Assembly: GCA_035574235.1 (NCBI GenBank)
Contig: DATLZA010000027.1
Span: 1-43,757 of the forward strand
Length of the DNA: 43,757 nt
Direction: 5' to 3'
Origin: Planctomycetota bacterium
Lineage (GTDB): Bacteria; Planctomycetota; MHYJ01; JACPRB01
In this document: one piece after another, positions 7,904-15,318 of the stretch
Position numbering within the stretch: the first letter of the stretch is position 1
Layout: every line of letters begins with the position of its first letter
Program-made: the position numbers and the translations under genes
The notes under the pieces: generated by a model
Databases searched by the model: none
What the model saw: only the letters and a program-made list of their open reading frames with translations
What the model was told of the DNA's origin: nothing

Positions 7904-8482
7904 ATGCGATATCCCGCCGCCGCGGCGGCGCTGGCGTTCGTCCTGGCCGCCTGCGCGTCCGCCGAGTCCTGGCCCGGGCCTTCGCGTCCGTTCCGGGGCA
8001 AGATCCACGGGATCCCCGGCATGATCGAGGCGGAAGATTTCGACGAGGGCGGGGAAGGCGTGGCCTACCACGACGCCGAGGCGCGCAACCTCGAGACCCG
8101 CGGCGCCCCGTACCGCGAGTCGGGAGTGGACCTCGAATGGCGTCCCGAGGCGCGCGGGGGCTACAACCTGGGATGGACCCGGCCGGGCGAGTGGCTCGTC
8201 TACACGGTGGAGGTCCGGGAATCCGGCCTCTATCGGCTGGATACGAGCGTGGCCTGCAAGGGCCCGGGCGGGACGTTCCGGATCGAGTTCGGCGGCGTGG
8301 ACCGCACCGGGCCGATCGAGATTCCCGACACCGGAGGATGGCAATACCTCAAGCCTCTTTCCCGCGAAGGCCTCCGCCTGGAGGCGGGCCGCTGGGCGAT
8401 GAGGGTGGTCCTGGACCGGCCGGGCGCTTCGGGCAGCATCGGAGACATCGACTTCTTCACGTTCACGCGGGTGGGTCCGTGA
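7904..8482 (+). CDS. CBM6-like lipoprotein
   Basis: A 192-residue exported protein. A hydrophobic signal ends in the lipobox LAAC with Cys17. The rest resembles a carbohydrate-binding module of the CBM6 type: the opening IEAEDFDEGGEGVAYHD, the central WTRPGEWLVYTVEVRESGLY, and the closing GSIGDIDFFTF. Such modules bind glycans and usually ride on glycoside hydrolases, yet no catalytic domain is attached. Its TGA overlaps the GTG of the next gene, so the two are likely translated together. It could bind a cell-surface or extracellular polysaccharide; the ligand is unknown. Confidence 0.7.
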   Translation: MRYPAAAAALAFVLAACASAESWPGPSRPFRGKIHGIPGMIEAEDFDEGGEGVAYHDAEARNLETRGAPYRESGVDLEWRPEARGGYNLGWTRPGEWLVYTVEVRESGLYRLDTSVACKGPGGTFRIEFGGVDRTGPIEIPDTGGWQYLKPLSREGLRLEAGRWAMRVVLDRPGASGSIGDIDFFTFTRVGP

Positions 8483-9402
8483 GGAAGGCGCCCTACGTCC
8501 TGGCGATCCTGGCGACCTTCGGGGTGGGGATCGCGGATCTGGCGCTTCTCGGGGTCCCCGCCTTCCGGAACGGCTGGTGGACGATGGCCCTGTTCGCGGT
8601 CCCCGCGGCGTTCCTGGGAATCGGGCGGCGCGGGGCGGGCGCGATCCGGTTCTGGGCCTGGGCCGTCTTTCTGGCGGGGCTGCTCGGGTATCCCGCGCTT
8701 CGACTCTGGGCGTTCCGCGTGCCTCAGGATCCGCCGGCGGTGTCGGTCGGGTCGCGGGCGCCGGACTTCACGCTTCCGGACGCCGAGGGGCGCCCGGTGT
8801 CGCTCGGGGAACTCGCGCGCGGAGGGCGCGTCCTTCTGGTTTTCTTCCGCGGCCCGGGCTGACCGGTCTGTCGGGCCGAGCTTTCGGCCCTGGCCGCCCG
8901 CCTGGAGGACTTCCGGAACTCGCGGGTGACCGTGGTCGCCGTGGGGCCGCAGCGCCCGGAGGACGCCCGCGCGCTCGGACTTCCGTTTCCGGTGCTCTCG
9001 GACGTCTCCCTCGAGGTGACGCGGCGGTACGGGCTTCTTCACCCGGGAGGCTTTCTGGGACGGGATGCGCCGCGGCCGGCGCTTCTGCTGCTGGGGCCCG
9101 ACCGGGTCGTGCGCTGGATCCGTCCCGCTCCGGATGTGCGGACGCGGCCGGCGCCGGAAGAAATTCTGGAAGCGCTCCGGAGCGCGCGCGGTCCGGGGGG
9201 GGGCGGGACGCCGCCGGTCAGAAGGGTTTCCGCGCGGTCGGCGCGGCGGCGGCCTTCGCCTCGGCGGCCAGCGCCTCGGCGAGCTCGCGCATTTCGCGGT
9301 CGCGCGCGGCGGCGGCGAGCAGCGCCTCCTCCGCCTGACGGGTTCCCTGCCGCGCCAGCGCGGCCAGCGCGGCCCGGCGCGTCTCGGCGGAATAGCCCTT
9401 GA
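8479..9402 (+). CDS. Membrane-anchored peroxiredoxin-like selenoprotein (TGA read as Sec)
   Basis: Begins at GTG 8479 (GTGA overlap with the lipoprotein). Residues 4-80 contain three membrane segments (near 6-26, 33-49 and 58-79). An AhpC/TSA redoxin domain follows from about residue 88, opening GSRAPDFTLPDAEGRPVSL. At 8860-8862 the frame meets TGA (codon 128), within FFRGPG-U-PVCRAEL; family members have Cys there. The same frame continues as clear redoxin sequence (VTVVAVGPQRPEDARALGL, then LLLLGPDRVVRWIRP), so this is one gene. A hairpin fitting a bacterial SECIS starts 11 nt after TGA. The redoxin fold ends near 9190; the remaining Arg/Pro-rich tail to 9402 runs antisense to the next gene and may not be functional. 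Likely a thiol/peroxide oxidoreductase; the substrate is unknown. A nonsense mutation or sequencing error is the alternative. Confidence 0.8.
8873..8890 (+). promoter_or_regulatory. Predicted bacterial SECIS hairpin
   Basis: Perfect 7-bp stem GGGCCGA (8873-8879) with TCGGCCC (8884-8890) and loop GCTT. The loop begins 18 nt after the TGA and has G as its first base. Both match what I recall of the bacterial SECIS consensus: apical loop about 16-37 nt after UGA, with a G in the first two loop bases. It would bind SelB carrying Sec-tRNA. Confidence 0.7.
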
Positions 9403-12400
9403 CGAGCCCCAGGAAGCGCGGGCGGCGCTCGACGATCCGCGAAAGCAGAGGCACCGACGCCGGGTTGGGCGCCGCCTCGAAGTAGGCGCAGCAAAGCTGC
9501 AGGAGGCGCTCGTCCTCCGTGGCCTCCATGAGCTTGCCCACTTCGGCGCCGAGCTGCGGGATCTTCAGCCGGGCCGCCAGCTCGAGCCCCCGCACGCGGC
9601 GCCCCTCGTCGGCGCTCCCCAGGAGCTGCCGCACCACCGGAGCCGCCAGCGGCGCCGGCCACCGCTCCGCCGCCTCGAGAATCATCCGGCGGACCTCGGG
9701 GGGGCCTTTCTCCGCCAGCTCGGCCAGGTGACCCGCGAGCGCCGGTCCGAGAAGCGGATCGATCACCTCGAGGAGCCGGGCGACGCGGTCCGGCGGCGTC
9801 TCGGGGCCCAGGACCTGCGCGAGCTCCCCGGCCACCTCGGCCGCCGCGAACCCCAGGGCCGTGGCCATCGCCTTGCGCGCCGCCGGGTCCGGCTCGTCCA
9901 GGAACGCCTCCAGGAGCCGCCGCACCGCCTCGCCGCCGATCGACAGGAGAATGTTCGCCGCGGTCAGGCGCTCCTCGGGCCGCGGCTTGCGGAGCGAGGC
10001 CAGAAGCACCGGGTAGGCCGCGGTCTTCGGGATGTCCTGGAGGATCGATTCGCACGCGATGGCGATTTCCTGGGGGGTGTCCGCGGCCGCGGCGCGCTTG
10101 CGAAGCACGGAGCCGGCGATCTCCGCCAGTTCCCGCAGGCACCCCACCGTGGCGGCGGCCGGGATCCACAGCGGGAGGATGTCCGTCGCCGTGCGGAAAA
10201 GCTCAGGCGTCTTGTCCTCCCAGAGCCGCTGCCGGAGCGGAGGAGCGGAGCGCTCGACCTCCAGCCGGCGCGTTCCCGGCGAAGCGAAGGCGAGCGACCG
10301 GCCCAGAAGATCGAACGCGCGGCGGCGGTGGCGACCGCTCGGGTCGGCGAAATGCGCCCCCAGGCGGTCCACGAGCTGCTCCGCGAGCGGCCGGAGCGCT
10401 CCGTACGCGAGCGTCTCGACGAGCGCGGGGAACTGCTGCTCGAGCTCCCCGGAGAGGAACTCGGCATACGGCCGGGCCAGAAGCTCCCGCGCGCGGATTT
10501 CGGAACGGATGGGCCTGGGCGGCGGGGCCACGGCGACGACCGTCCGGCCCTCCTCGGCGCGCGCGTACTCGCGGGAGCCGAACTCCACGTGGACGAACTG
10601 CTGCAGGAGGCCGGCGGCCGGCGTTCCGGGCGGCATCGAAAGGAAACTCACCAGGGCGCGCACCTCGTCCTCCGTGAGCCCCGAGGCGAGCGTTATGCTC
10701 TTGAGGGCGCGTTCGTCGATCTCCTTCACGAGGAAGGCGCCCGCCTCGCCGTAGAACTTGCGGTCGCCCGGCCGGCCGTTGACGACGAGCTCCCCCTCCG
10801 CCGTTCCGAGAACGACCGCCGGGACGCGCGCGCAGAGCTCCGTGAGCGCCCGGGAGGCCTCCCGGGCCGTCTCCTCGACGAGCGAATGCCCCGGCGGGTA
10901 GAGCTTGAGGGCGTCCACGGCGGCCTTGAAGAGGCGCAGGGCGTCCCGGAGCGCCGGAAGATGCTCGGGCGGAATCGGCCCCTCGGCCGCCCGCGCGGCG
11001 GCGCGCGCGTCGCGCTCGCGGACCTGGTAGGCCTTCTGGACGAGGTCGATGCCCTCGAGCCCCTCGCGGTCGAGGAAGCGGTCCCAGTGGTCGGCCTCCG
11101 CGCGCACCCGGTCGAAGGGCTCGGTGAACGCCTTGAGGAGGGTCTCGATGCGTCCGACGTCGAAGGAGGGCAGGAGCGTCAGGGACTCCACGAGGCGTTC
11201 GTCGAGGAGCGCGGCGAAATCGGCGGCGACCGCGGCATCCGAGGGCCGGCCGTTGATCGCGGGGCCGGCGGAGCCGGCGGAAAAGGTGAAGCCCGGCGCG
11301 GCCGCCAGGAGCGCCCGGAGTTCGTCCCGGAGCTGGGCGACGAATCCCGCGCTCACCTGGCTCCACTGCGGATAGAGCCGCCCGACCTTGAGCGCTCCGG
11401 CGAAGTGCCGCAGGGCGGCCAGCGCGTGCTCGAGGGCCGCCGGGGAGAGCGGCTCCTTGCAGGGCTCCAGCCGCGCGCGGCGCGCGCCCTCCCGCCGCGG
11501 GGGCCTGAGGATCTCCGCGCGGCGGCGCGCCACGGCGTCGAAGTGCCGGGCCCGGTCCTCCCGGCCGGCGCGCCCGTAGTGATAGGCCAGCTCGTCGGCC
11601 AGATGGGCGACGTCGCCCCCGTGGCGGGCCTCCTGAGCCACGCCCACGCGCGCGTGGAGATGGCGGCGCTCGTCGTCCGGCGAGGATTCCAGACGCGCCC
11701 GGCGGGCGTAGGAGGCCGGGAAGGAGAGAAGTTCCGTCTCCGTGTCCGACGTCACCAGGAGGCGCGCGCGCCGGGCCTCGTCGATGAGGTCCAGCATCTC
11801 CATGTCGTCCTGGCCCATGACCTCCTGGAGGAGATCGGGATCCACGTCCGCCCCGATGACGGCGGCGCCGAGGAGGAGCGTGTTGGCGCGGGCCGGAAGC
11901 GCTTCCGCCACGGCGCGCACCGCCCCGTCGAGGTCCCGAGGAAGGTCGGCGGGTCCCAGGGCCGGGATCTTCCATCGGCCGTCCGCCAGCCGCACGCGGC
12001 CCTTGAGGAGAAGCGCGCGGAGGGTCTCTTCGAGCCAGAGCGGGTTGCCGCCCGAGGACTCGACGAGCTGCCGCACGGCGTCGGGGGCGAAGTCGGCGTC
12101 CGGCAGGATCGCCTGGAGCATCCGGCCCATTTCCTCGGGGGTCAGGGGGCCCAGGGCGAGCGTGACGGCCGAGGGGCCGCGCTCGCGGAAGAAATCCCCC
12201 GCCCGCGTGCGGGCGAACGCCTCCGCGTCCAGGTCCGTGGCGGCGGCCAGGAGATACGGGACGCCCCGGGCGGCCGCCTGGCGGAGGGCCTCGAACGTGG
12301 CCGCGTCGGCGTGCTCCGCTTCGTCGAAGGTTACGAGGAGCGGTCCCTCGCGCGCCAGCTCCGCCAGGAGCGCGGGGAAGGCCTCCCAGAGGAGGCGCGC

Positions 12401-13342
12401 GTAGCGGGACAGCTCGAGCTCCGCGGGCCGGTCCGGGAGCGGGTACTCGCGGAGCACCACCGCGAGCGCGCTGCGGGGGTCGGGACCCAGCCGCAGGAGC
12501 GCCTCGCGCACGATGCGCGGATCGGTGACGGAGAGGCCGTCCACCGCCTCGGCGAGGCTCGCGTAGGGGAACCCGGCGCGGGGTTCCCGGCAGGTGGTCG
12601 AGAGCACCACGAACCGCTCGGAGCGGGCCCAGATTCCCAGCTCCCGCAGGAGCCGCGACTTGCCCAGGCCCGCGGGGCCGGTCACGAGCGCGCAAGAGGC
12701 GCCCACATGGCGGGCGTCCGAGGCCATCTGCCGGAGCTTGGCCTGTTCGGGCGCCCGGCCGATCAGCAGCGGACAGGGCAGGCCGCGGAAGACGCCGATT
12801 TCGGCGAGCACCGCCGGATCCAGGCGTCCGGCGACGGCGACGCGGTCGCGTCCCTGGCGCTTGGCGACGAAAAGCGCCAGTTCCGCCGCCTCGATGAGGA
12901 GCGTGGGCGAGCGGCCGTCCACGGGATAGGACGAGGCGGACGCGCTGGCGGTGAGGGCGACGCGCAGGCCGCCTTGGTCGTCCGCGCCGAGCGCGAACGG
13001 TTCGGAGCGCACGGCGGCGCGGAGGGTTTCGGCGCAGCGCAGGCCGCGCTCCTTGTCGGCTCCGGGCAGGAGCGCGCAGAACGCGTCCGCCGCCCAGCGG
13101 TAGAGGAGGGTGTCCGGTTCGGCGGCCGCGCGGAGCCGCCGGGCGACTTCGGAGAGCAGACGCTCCACGAGCGCCTTGGGGAAGCGCTCGGTGGCCGATC
13201 GGAAGCCGTCCAGGTCGAGCATTACGAGCGCGCCCTGGCCTCCGGGGACGCGTTCGCGAAGGTCCCTGAGAAGGGCGCGGCGGTTGGCCAGTCCCGTGAC
13301 GCGGTCCAGGAGCGCGGGGTCGGGCGCGGCGGAGGCGTTCAT
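9218..13342 (-). CDS. Giant GGDEF-like / ATPase / HEAT-repeat signalling protein
   Basis: A 1374-residue protein, ATG at 13342. Residues about 10-170 are a GGDEF-like domain whose signature is degenerate (WAADAF at 83-88 instead of GGDEF), so cyclase activity is unlikely. An STAND/AAA-type ATPase follows, with Walker A GPAGLGKS at 222-229 and a Walker B-like LLVTFDEAEHAD. The middle holds two diverged copies of one domain, each with a LYP motif and a NGRP motif (INGRPSDA and VNGRPGDR). The C-terminal 350 residues are alpha-helical HEAT-like repeats. No membrane segment is seen. Its ATG overlaps the kinase stop by 4 bp, so the kinase and this protein are probably made together. The kinase may phosphorylate or be scaffolded by it; this is inference. 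Confidence 0.75.
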   Translation of the reverse strand: MNASAAPDPALLDRVTGLANRRALLRDLRERVPGGQGALVMLDLDGFRSATERFPKALVERLLSEVARRLRAAAEPDTLLYRWAADAFCALLPGADKERGLRCAETLRAAVRSEPFALGADDQGGLRVALTASASASSYPVDGRSPTLLIEAAELALFVAKRQGRDRVAVAGRLDPAVLAEIGVFRGLPCPLLIGRAPEQAKLRQMASDARHVGASCALVTGPAGLGKSRLLRELGIWARSERFVVLSTTCREPRAGFPYASLAEAVDGLSVTDPRIVREALLRLGPDPRSALAVVLREYPLPDRPAELELSRYARLLWEAFPALLAELAREGPLLVTFDEAEHADAATFEALRQAAARGVPYLLAAATDLDAEAFARTRAGDFFRERGPSAVTLALGPLTPEEMGRMLQAILPDADFAPDAVRQLVESSGGNPLWLEETLRALLLKGRVRLADGRWKIPALGPADLPRDLDGAVRAVAEALPARANTLLLGAAVIGADVDPDLLQEVMGQDDMEMLDLIDEARRARLLVTSDTETELLSFPASYARRARLESSPDDERRHLHARVGVAQEARHGGDVAHLADELAYHYGRAGREDRARHFDAVARRRAEILRPPRREGARRARLEPCKEPLSPAALEHALAALRHFAGALKVGRLYPQWSQVSAGFVAQLRDELRALLAAAPGFTFSAGSAGPAINGRPSDAAVAADFAALLDERLVESLTLLPSFDVGRIETLLKAFTEPFDRVRAEADHWDRFLDREGLEGIDLVQKAYQVRERDARAAARAAEGPIPPEHLPALRDALRLFKAAVDALKLYPPGHSLVEETAREASRALTELCARVPAVVLGTAEGELVVNGRPGDRKFYGEAGAFLVKEIDERALKSITLASGLTEDEVRALVSFLSMPPGTPAAGLLQQFVHVEFGSREYARAEEGRTVVAVAPPPRPIRSEIRARELLARPYAEFLSGELEQQFPALVETLAYGALRPLAEQLVDRLGAHFADPSGRHRRRAFDLLGRSLAFASPGTRRLEVERSAPPLRQRLWEDKTPELFRTATDILPLWIPAAATVGCLRELAEIAGSVLRKRAAAADTPQEIAIACESILQDIPKTAAYPVLLASLRKPRPEERLTAANILLSIGGEAVRRLLEAFLDEPDPAARKAMATALGFAAAEVAGELAQVLGPETPPDRVARLLEVIDPLLGPALAGHLAELAEKGPPEVRRMILEAAERWPAPLAAPVVRQLLGSADEGRRVRGLELAARLKIPQLGAEVGKLMEATEDERLLQLCCAYFEAAPNPASVPLLSRIVERRPRFLGLVKGYSAETRRAALAALARQGTRQAEEALLAAAARDREMRELAEALAAEAKAAAAPTARKPF

Positions 13343-15318
13343 GGGCGGCGGATCTCCTCGAGCTCGCGGCGGGCTTCCTCGGCCAGCGGCGTTCCCTCGA
13401 GCGTCCGGAGGATCTCGGCCGCCTTGGGGTCTCGTCCGGCCGCGCGGCAGTAGAGGGCCAGGCCCCAGCGGTCTTCCGCGCGGTCGAGCAGGCCGCAGGC
13501 GGCCGCCAGGGCGGCCACGCCCTCGGGGCCCAGGTCGGACCAGTCGGCCGCGTCGGGTTCGTCCTCTGCGAGAAAGACGACGCGGTCCGGATAGGCTTTG
13601 AAGATCCGGACGTCGCGCAGGGTGCGGCCCCGCACGGAAAGCTCCGGAAGGACGGGGCGCAGGCGGCGCACGGCGTCCGAGAGGCGTTCCTTGAAGGCGA
13701 GGACGGCGTCGCGGTGCCGGGCGAGGCGGGCGGGGCCGGGTTCGGAGGGGGAGCCCAGGCCGAGCGCCTCGGGGGCCTCGGGGCGGAATTCGGCCAGGCG
13801 GCGGAGCGCGCGTTCGGCCGGAGGTTCCGTCTCCGGGGCGGGACGGAAAGCGACCCACGCGGCGGCTCCCGTCAGGACCGCGGCCGCCAGCGCCGCGGCC
13901 GCCGGCGCGGCCCGGCGCGACCGAGGGGGCGGAAGGGAAACCGCCCGCGTCCGGGAGGAGGAGGCGCTCCCGTCCAGGACGGCGCGGGCCTTCTGGAGGA
14001 TGGAGGCGATCTCCTGCGCCACGGCCAGCGCGCTCGGGGGGCGGCGTTCGCGTTCCTTCTCGAGGCATCGCAGGCAGAGCGCCTCGAGGTCCGCGGGGAT
14101 CGACCGCGTCCGCTCGCCGGCGGCGGCCCGCTCGCGGGCCACGGTGGACGGCGGGACCGGCCGGTCGCGCAGGGTCTGGAGGATCACTTTTCCCATGTCC
14201 CCGGCGAACGGAGGACGCCCGGTGAGGACTTCATAGAGGACCGCGCCCAGTCCGTAGACGTCCGTGCGGGCGTCCACTTCGTCGTTCCGCCCCGCGGCCT
14301 GCTCGGGGGACATGTACGAGGGCGTGCCGCTGATCATGCCGACGTCGTCGGCGAAATTTCCGAGCTGGCGGGCCAGGCCGAAGTCCAGGACGTACGGCCG
14401 TCCGTCCTTGGCGATGAAGATGTTGCCCGGCTTGAGGTCGCAGTGGAACGTGGGGATCGGCCGCGTGTGGGCGTAGTGGACCGCGTGGGCCACCTGGTAG
14501 AGCACGCCCAGCCAGCGTTCGGGGTCGGCGTCCCAGAGGGACTGCTTGCGTTGCTCGCGGTGGCGGCGGATTTCGTCGTACAGGGTGTGCCCTTCCAGGC
14601 ACTCCATGCTGATGTAGTAGACCTGGCCGACGCGGCCGATGTCGTAGACCGAGACGATGTTCGGGTGGCGCAGGCGGATGGCGTTGTGCGCCTCGTTGAG
14701 GAGGCTGGCCACGCGGGAATGGTGGCCGGAAGCGGTTTCCGAAGGCTGCGGCTTGATCCGCTTGAGGGCCACATACTGGTGGAGGTAGGTGTCCCACGCG
14801 CGGGAGACTTCGGCGATCCCGCCGCGGCCGAGGGGTTCGAGGATCACGTACTTGCCGAACCGCCGGGTGGTCTCGCGGAGCGCTTCCTGGACCTCGGGGG
14901 GTACGGGCAGGCAGCTGTTGACGATGATCGAGCTTTCGACGCACTTGTGGCCGTCGCCCGGCGGGGGCGGCCGGAGCGGACCTTGGCAGCGGCCGCACTG
15001 GTACGCGATGGCGTCGGGGCGGCGGTCCACGTTGACCAGAATCTCGCAGCTCGGGCAGAAGAGGATCTTCTTGTCCTGCTCCCCGAGCGCGCGCTCCACC
15101 GCCTCGCGCGTGACGTAGCCCTTCCGGACGAGAATCTCGCCCAGCCGCGGGGGCGGCGTCCCCTCGCGCCCGACCATCTCGCGCTGCGTGCGGAGGGCGT
15201 CCTCGAGCTGCTCCGGGCGCAGAAGTCCGTCCCGGACCAGGATCTGGCCGAGATCCGCCTTTTCGGGAACGGGCGGGAGGGAGGACGGCGCCGGAGCCTT
15301 CTCGGTGCGCGGTTCCAT
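13339..15318 (-). CDS. Membrane Ser/Thr protein kinase with zinc ribbon
   Basis: A 659-residue Hanks-type kinase. Residues 23-80 contain two copies of a short motif, LGQILVRDGLL and LGEILVRKGYV, like the N-terminal domain of PilB/GspE ATPases. A zinc ribbon follows (C88, C91, C108, C111). The kinase domain runs from about 154 to 440: Gly loop LGRGGIAEV, Lys186 in VALKR, catalytic HCDLKPGN (Asp294), DFG at 312-314, SPE at 337-339. The usual HRD is HCD, a non-RD kinase that may not need activation-loop phosphorylation. A single membrane segment near residue 475 precedes an extracytoplasmic helical domain. It leads the operon with the giant ATPase protein. Confidence 0.9.
   Translation of the reverse strand: MEPRTEKAPAPSSLPPVPEKADLGQILVRDGLLRPEQLEDALRTQREMVGREGTPPPRLGEILVRKGYVTREAVERALGEQDKKILFCPSCEILVNVDRRPDAIAYQCGRCQGPLRPPPPGDGHKCVESSIIVNSCLPVPPEVQEALRETTRRFGKYVILEPLGRGGIAEVSRAWDTYLHQYVALKRIKPQPSETASGHHSRVASLLNEAHNAIRLRHPNIVSVYDIGRVGQVYYISMECLEGHTLYDEIRRHREQRKQSLWDADPERWLGVLYQVAHAVHYAHTRPIPTFHCDLKPGNIFIAKDGRPYVLDFGLARQLGNFADDVGMISGTPSYMSPEQAAGRNDEVDARTDVYGLGAVLYEVLTGRPPFAGDMGKVILQTLRDRPVPPSTVARERAAAGERTRSIPADLEALCLRCLEKERERRPPSALAVAQEIASILQKARAVLDGSASSSRTRAVSLPPPRSRRAAPAAAALAAAVLTGAAAWVAFRPAPETEPPAERALRRLAEFRPEAPEALGLGSPSEPGPARLARHRDAVLAFKERLSDAVRRLRPVLPELSVRGRTLRDVRIFKAYPDRVVFLAEDEPDAADWSDLGPEGVAALAAACGLLDRAEDRWGLALYCRAAGRDPKAAEILRTLEGTPLAEEARRELEEIRRP

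Follow-up and report, generated by a model that had tools for sequence, protein, structure and literature searches.

Does the TGA at positions 8860-8862 of the window (the whole stretch of DNA analysed here, 43,757 nucleotides) end a gene, or is it read as selenocysteine (Sec) within a membrane-bound redox protein? The frame in question begins on the plus strand at GTG 8479, a codon that shares bases with the stop codon of the CBM6-type gene upstream (GTGA), and meets the TGA as codon 128, beyond which it stays open until TGA 9400-9402. Codon statistics carry on downstream of TGA 8860, and an AhpC/TSA (PF00578) domain spans it, covering residues 90-213 (8746..9117) with 86.5 bits and an E-value of 1.8e-24, where the gathering score is 26. 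The second cysteine of the motif, which reads GPG-U-P-V-C, is kept as TGT 8869-8871 (Cys131). Both the frame and the span of the domain agree with an earlier, sequence-only reading of this DNA, in which the frame from GTG 8479 was said to meet the TGA, to continue with AhpC/TSA sequence and to retain the second cysteine. Coding sequence with homology support runs over 8479..9198 (240 codons), since the alignment with homologues starts at the N-terminus and reaches to about residue 235-240, where these end. We conclude that TGA 8860 is almost certainly a selenocysteine codon of a gene for a thioredoxin-like protein with a membrane anchor. To the joint explanation, that the gene at 8479-9198 codes for a membrane-anchored Prx-like UxxC selenoprotein working by the mechanism proposed below, we would give a probability of about 0.9.

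Membrane anchor, fold and active site

An AlphaFold2 model built from 20 sequences (mean pLDDT 87.9) has helices at residues 4-22, 34-48 and 54-79, followed by a redoxin fold that is borne out by Foldseek matches of this domain to the peroxiredoxins PrxQ, AhpE and Bcp. The first and third helices (8488..8544 and 8638..8715) are also predicted as transmembrane by hydropathy, and the second (8578..8622) falls below the hydropathy threshold in the window protein and is clear in relatives. By the same measure most relatives have three helices, one has four and two have one, and many carry positive charge at the N-terminus or in the second loop. From the positive-inside rule, this charge pattern and the helix count, we infer that the redoxin domain lies on the extracytoplasmic side. 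It had been proposed that three helices joined to a redoxin are unusual for a selenoprotein. This could not be upheld, since a search with a profile through 294 genomes from the phylum found dozens of UxxC relatives, with 42 loci that cover both the helices and the redoxin domain and a TGA in 38 of them. The architecture is thus common in the phylum, and the proportion of TGA-bearing loci suggests that Sec is the dominant form of the three-helix membrane redoxin there.

Peroxiredoxins carry the motif PxxxTxxC. In the window protein the Pro position is taken by Arg124, which is invariant in the alignment, and the Thr position by Sec128, so that the full Pro, Thr and Cys set of a typical peroxiredoxin was not found and only the Cys is kept. 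That residue, Cys131, aligns with the peroxidatic Cys of PrxQ, AhpE and Bcp, which are also the best structural matches, and the protein might accordingly be a selenoprotein but a true peroxidase, with Cys131 as its peroxidatic residue. We regard this as the less likely reading, though it is the alternative with the most in its favor, because Pro and Thr of the motif are both replaced and UxxC is of the Trx/ResA type, which makes a thiol:disulfide oxidoreductase likelier. Judged from sequence, the likeliest function would be that of a thiol:disulfide oxidoreductase in which Sec128 is the nucleophile and Cys131 the resolving residue. The name peroxiredoxin-like, which the sequence-only reading had used, is therefore loose with regard to the catalytic motif.

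In the mechanism that we propose, the three N-terminal transmembrane helices would anchor the redoxin domain with its active site Sec128-Pro-Val-Cys131. SelA and SelD would produce Sec-tRNA(UCA), and SelB, which is encoded in the genome, would insert Sec by acting on the hairpin behind UGA 8860. With the N-terminus inside, passage through three helices would leave the redoxin domain facing the extracytoplasmic side, where Sec128, at the Trx-type nucleophile position, may attack a disulfide or a peroxide-type substrate. A Sec128-Cys131 selenenylsulfide would then form, to be resolved by a membrane or soluble reductant.

Evidence for selenocysteine at TGA 8860

Some match to the gene was found in 130 of 149 relatives. 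The 68 homologous domains that were aligned contain 55 in-frame TGAs, of which 40 fall in the column of U128, 12 in that of C131 (nine TxxU, two SxxU and one UxxU) and three past the domain end; the loci for this tally were picked partly for holding a TGA, and the position of the TGA played no part. Ten domains have Cys at the U128 column, including membrane forms with RGGWCPFC (L026, L037), in line with the earlier proposal that the TGA stands at the first Cys of a CxxC pair. In the window protein, Gly stands before Sec in place of a conserved Trp. Presence of the UxxC TGA went together with that of selA, which was over cut-off in 34 of 35 UxxC-TGA genomes as compared with 73 of the 114 remaining genomes (p 6e-5 by Fisher's test) and with two of eight Cys-only genomes (p 3e-5). 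One UxxC TGA redoxin (L055, G082:C69) comes from a genome whose best selA match, 50 bits, is below cut-off; this genome would be incomplete, or its Sec system decayed.

The genome that holds the window, a 4.06 Mb draft in 203 contigs, encodes SelA (568 bits), SelB (308 bits) and a tRNA-Sec with a UCA anticodon (68.9 bits), and has two selD genes over cut-off, so that the full Sec machinery which the sequence-only reading proposed to look for is present. One selD (L018:1480-2520, G000:C165) itself has an in-frame TGA at SGGUAGK, the known Sec site of SelD, and the other (L017, on C10) has Cys at this site. The GC content of the machinery loci (67-71%) is close to that of the window (70%), which argues against foreign contigs.

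Furthermore, a scan of the window for read-through UxxC frames found a second selenoprotein gene 6.5 kb from the first. It lies on the minus strand, with ATG 15934, an in-frame TGA at 15721-15719 within the motif HATUSYCQ and a stop TAG at 15382-15380, and its product matches NF053656, the "TUGYCR motif thioredoxin fold (seleno)protein", with 212 bits (cut-off 100). The TGA position is kept in homologues from G001, G003 and G048, two of these genomes belonging to the same family and the third to the same phylum, and this gene thus gives independent support for Sec use in the DNA of the window. As for the other UxxC, CxxU or TxxU read-through frames of the window, they have the look of antisense frames that are open by chance.

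As it is set out in the account of the bacterial SECIS model (PMC13188914), such an element has a loop of 3-9 nt, a stem of 4 bp or more, G within the first two positions of the loop, a spacing of 16-37 nt and an energy of -7.5 kcal/mol or lower. The SECIS-like hairpin of the window (8864..8899, plus strand, core stem about 8870-8894) passes this model, with the loop GCUU at 8880-8883, 17 nt after the UGA, and -19.5 kcal/mol. Since the model is also fitted by 60% of sites taken at random in this window of 70% GC, and 4.8% are as stable, the hairpin alone is weak evidence. The sequence-only reading was right that a hairpin of the bacterial type follows at a suitable distance, but at this one site it does not reach significance, and the fold z-score of the 51 nt behind TGA 8860 was -0.11. 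The test was therefore extended to the whole class, and in UxxC genes the hairpins behind the TGA were found to be more stable than those at other sites of the same genes (-12.5 vs -7.3, n=40, p 2.9e-9). TxxU genes likewise had hairpin enrichment behind the TGA (n=11, p 0.012), and behind the Cys codons of CxxC genes it was absent (n=10, p 0.75). A scan of the window at Rfam gathering thresholds gave no match.

These results bear on three other accounts of the TGA. It might be a nonsense mutation or an assembly error in a Cys-type gene, which would make the locus a pseudogene or a misread one; the assembly is a draft, a G run is followed by an odd C-terminal tail of the frame (see below), and no close orthologue for comparison was found in four other genomes of the same family, nor in a contig scan for close relatives, which returned a distant Roseobacter match only. 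We nevertheless hold this to be very improbable, as a TGA at the exact column recurs in 39 further loci, drawn from 34 further genomes of which nearly all have selA, the reading frame stays conserved and codon-like downstream, and a full Sec machinery is encoded in the genome. It is harder still to believe that TGA 8860 is the true stop of a 127-residue membrane protein followed by a separate gene from GTG 8926. Although an ORF does run from this GTG to 9402, the TGA lies inside the AhpC/TSA domain, the homologues are all continuous, and a protein begun at 8926 would be without the active site and the first helix of the domain. That the TGA is read as some other amino acid (e.g. Trp, code 4) is the least probable of the three, for although open frames alone cannot distinguish this from Sec, the ssb, dnaB and kinase genes of the window are open under table 11, the genome has tRNA-Sec, selA, selB and selD, homologues have Cys in the column, and the further TGAs occur where Sec is known (SelD, TUGYCR).

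Relation to known selenoprotein families

Reviews count a "Prx-like thiol:disulfide oxidoreductase, PF00578, UxxC/UxxU" among the selenoprotein families predicted with high confidence (PMC13188914, PMC9312934), and going by the entries on these proteins this family is the same as the "Prx-like" family of the Sargasso Sea (PMC1088965) and the "Prx-like 1" family of GOS (PMC2398784). Like members of this family, the selenoprotein of the window has a PF00578 domain, far over the gathering score, a UGA first in UxxC with Cys homologues, Sec machinery in its genome, and a bacterial SECIS hairpin, a feature that discriminates weakly in GC-rich DNA. Unlike the family as those entries describe it, the window protein has three N-terminal membrane helices, and no description of such a form was found in the sections on Prx-like selenoproteins in this literature. 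The gene adds a new and well-supported member to a selenoprotein family that was known before, and does not represent a new kind of system.

When the window protein and six relatives were compared with NCBIfam models, none reached its cut-off. Over the redoxin domain the best NCBIfam match was to the SelL-related redox protein NF040769 (40.1 bits, cut-off 120). PrxU, the Sec peroxiredoxin NF040737, shares the fold but has Sec at the other motif position (TxxU as opposed to UxxC), and the window protein scored 30.9 bits to it (cut-off 270), although relatives with a TGA at the C131 column do exist. Like ResA, TlpA and DsbE, which have CxxC, it is a membrane-anchored, probably extracytoplasmic redoxin, but it differs from them in having Sec for Cys and three helices and in scoring below their cut-offs.

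As no NCBIfam model is over cut-off on the membrane subfamily, pipelines may cut the gene at the TGA; standard gene callers may end there, and the active site would be missed. The three-helix redoxin lends itself to the study of Sec use outside the cytoplasm and to the correction of annotation. One may go further and picture a widespread, unannotated subfamily of UxxC redoxins that are polytopic, face the extracytoplasmic side and mostly have the Sec form across the phylum, and which would serve as a selenium-dependent membrane electron relay with the reductant carried by their own three-helix domain (DsbD/quinone-like), but as a whole we consider this extension speculative and rather improbable.

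Two minor observations were made among the relatives. A redoxin with two TGAs (L058, G058:C255) has the motif AWULVUR, and this UxxU is the double-Sec form known from Prx-like/SelL proteins. An identical TPGU redoxin sequence was present in draft genomes of different families (L068, G087:C126; L073, G001:C401), a case of probable cross-binning of contigs.

The C-terminal tail and the convergent gene

Downstream of the part with homology support, the frame continues as an open tail to the next stop (9199..9402). About 67 codons of it (9199-9399) are not coding-like, with GC by codon position of 0.84/0.91/0.67 and negative coding log-odds, and the tail reaches past the end of every aligned homologue, as these stop near 9198. 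It also overlaps the 3' end of a convergent minus-strand gene. The tail is probably not functional sequence, or an indel in the run of G residues around 9195-9205 has changed it; such an indel near the C-terminus of the selenoprotein gene is possible, and inspection by eye found no nearby stop in any forward frame. The convergent gene (9218-14068, minus strand) adjoins a Ser/Thr kinase gene (13339-15318, minus), and its start is uncertain because the two listed frames overlap by about 730 bases. It encodes a 1616-aa protein that combines GGDEF, an AAA ATPase and HEAT repeats.
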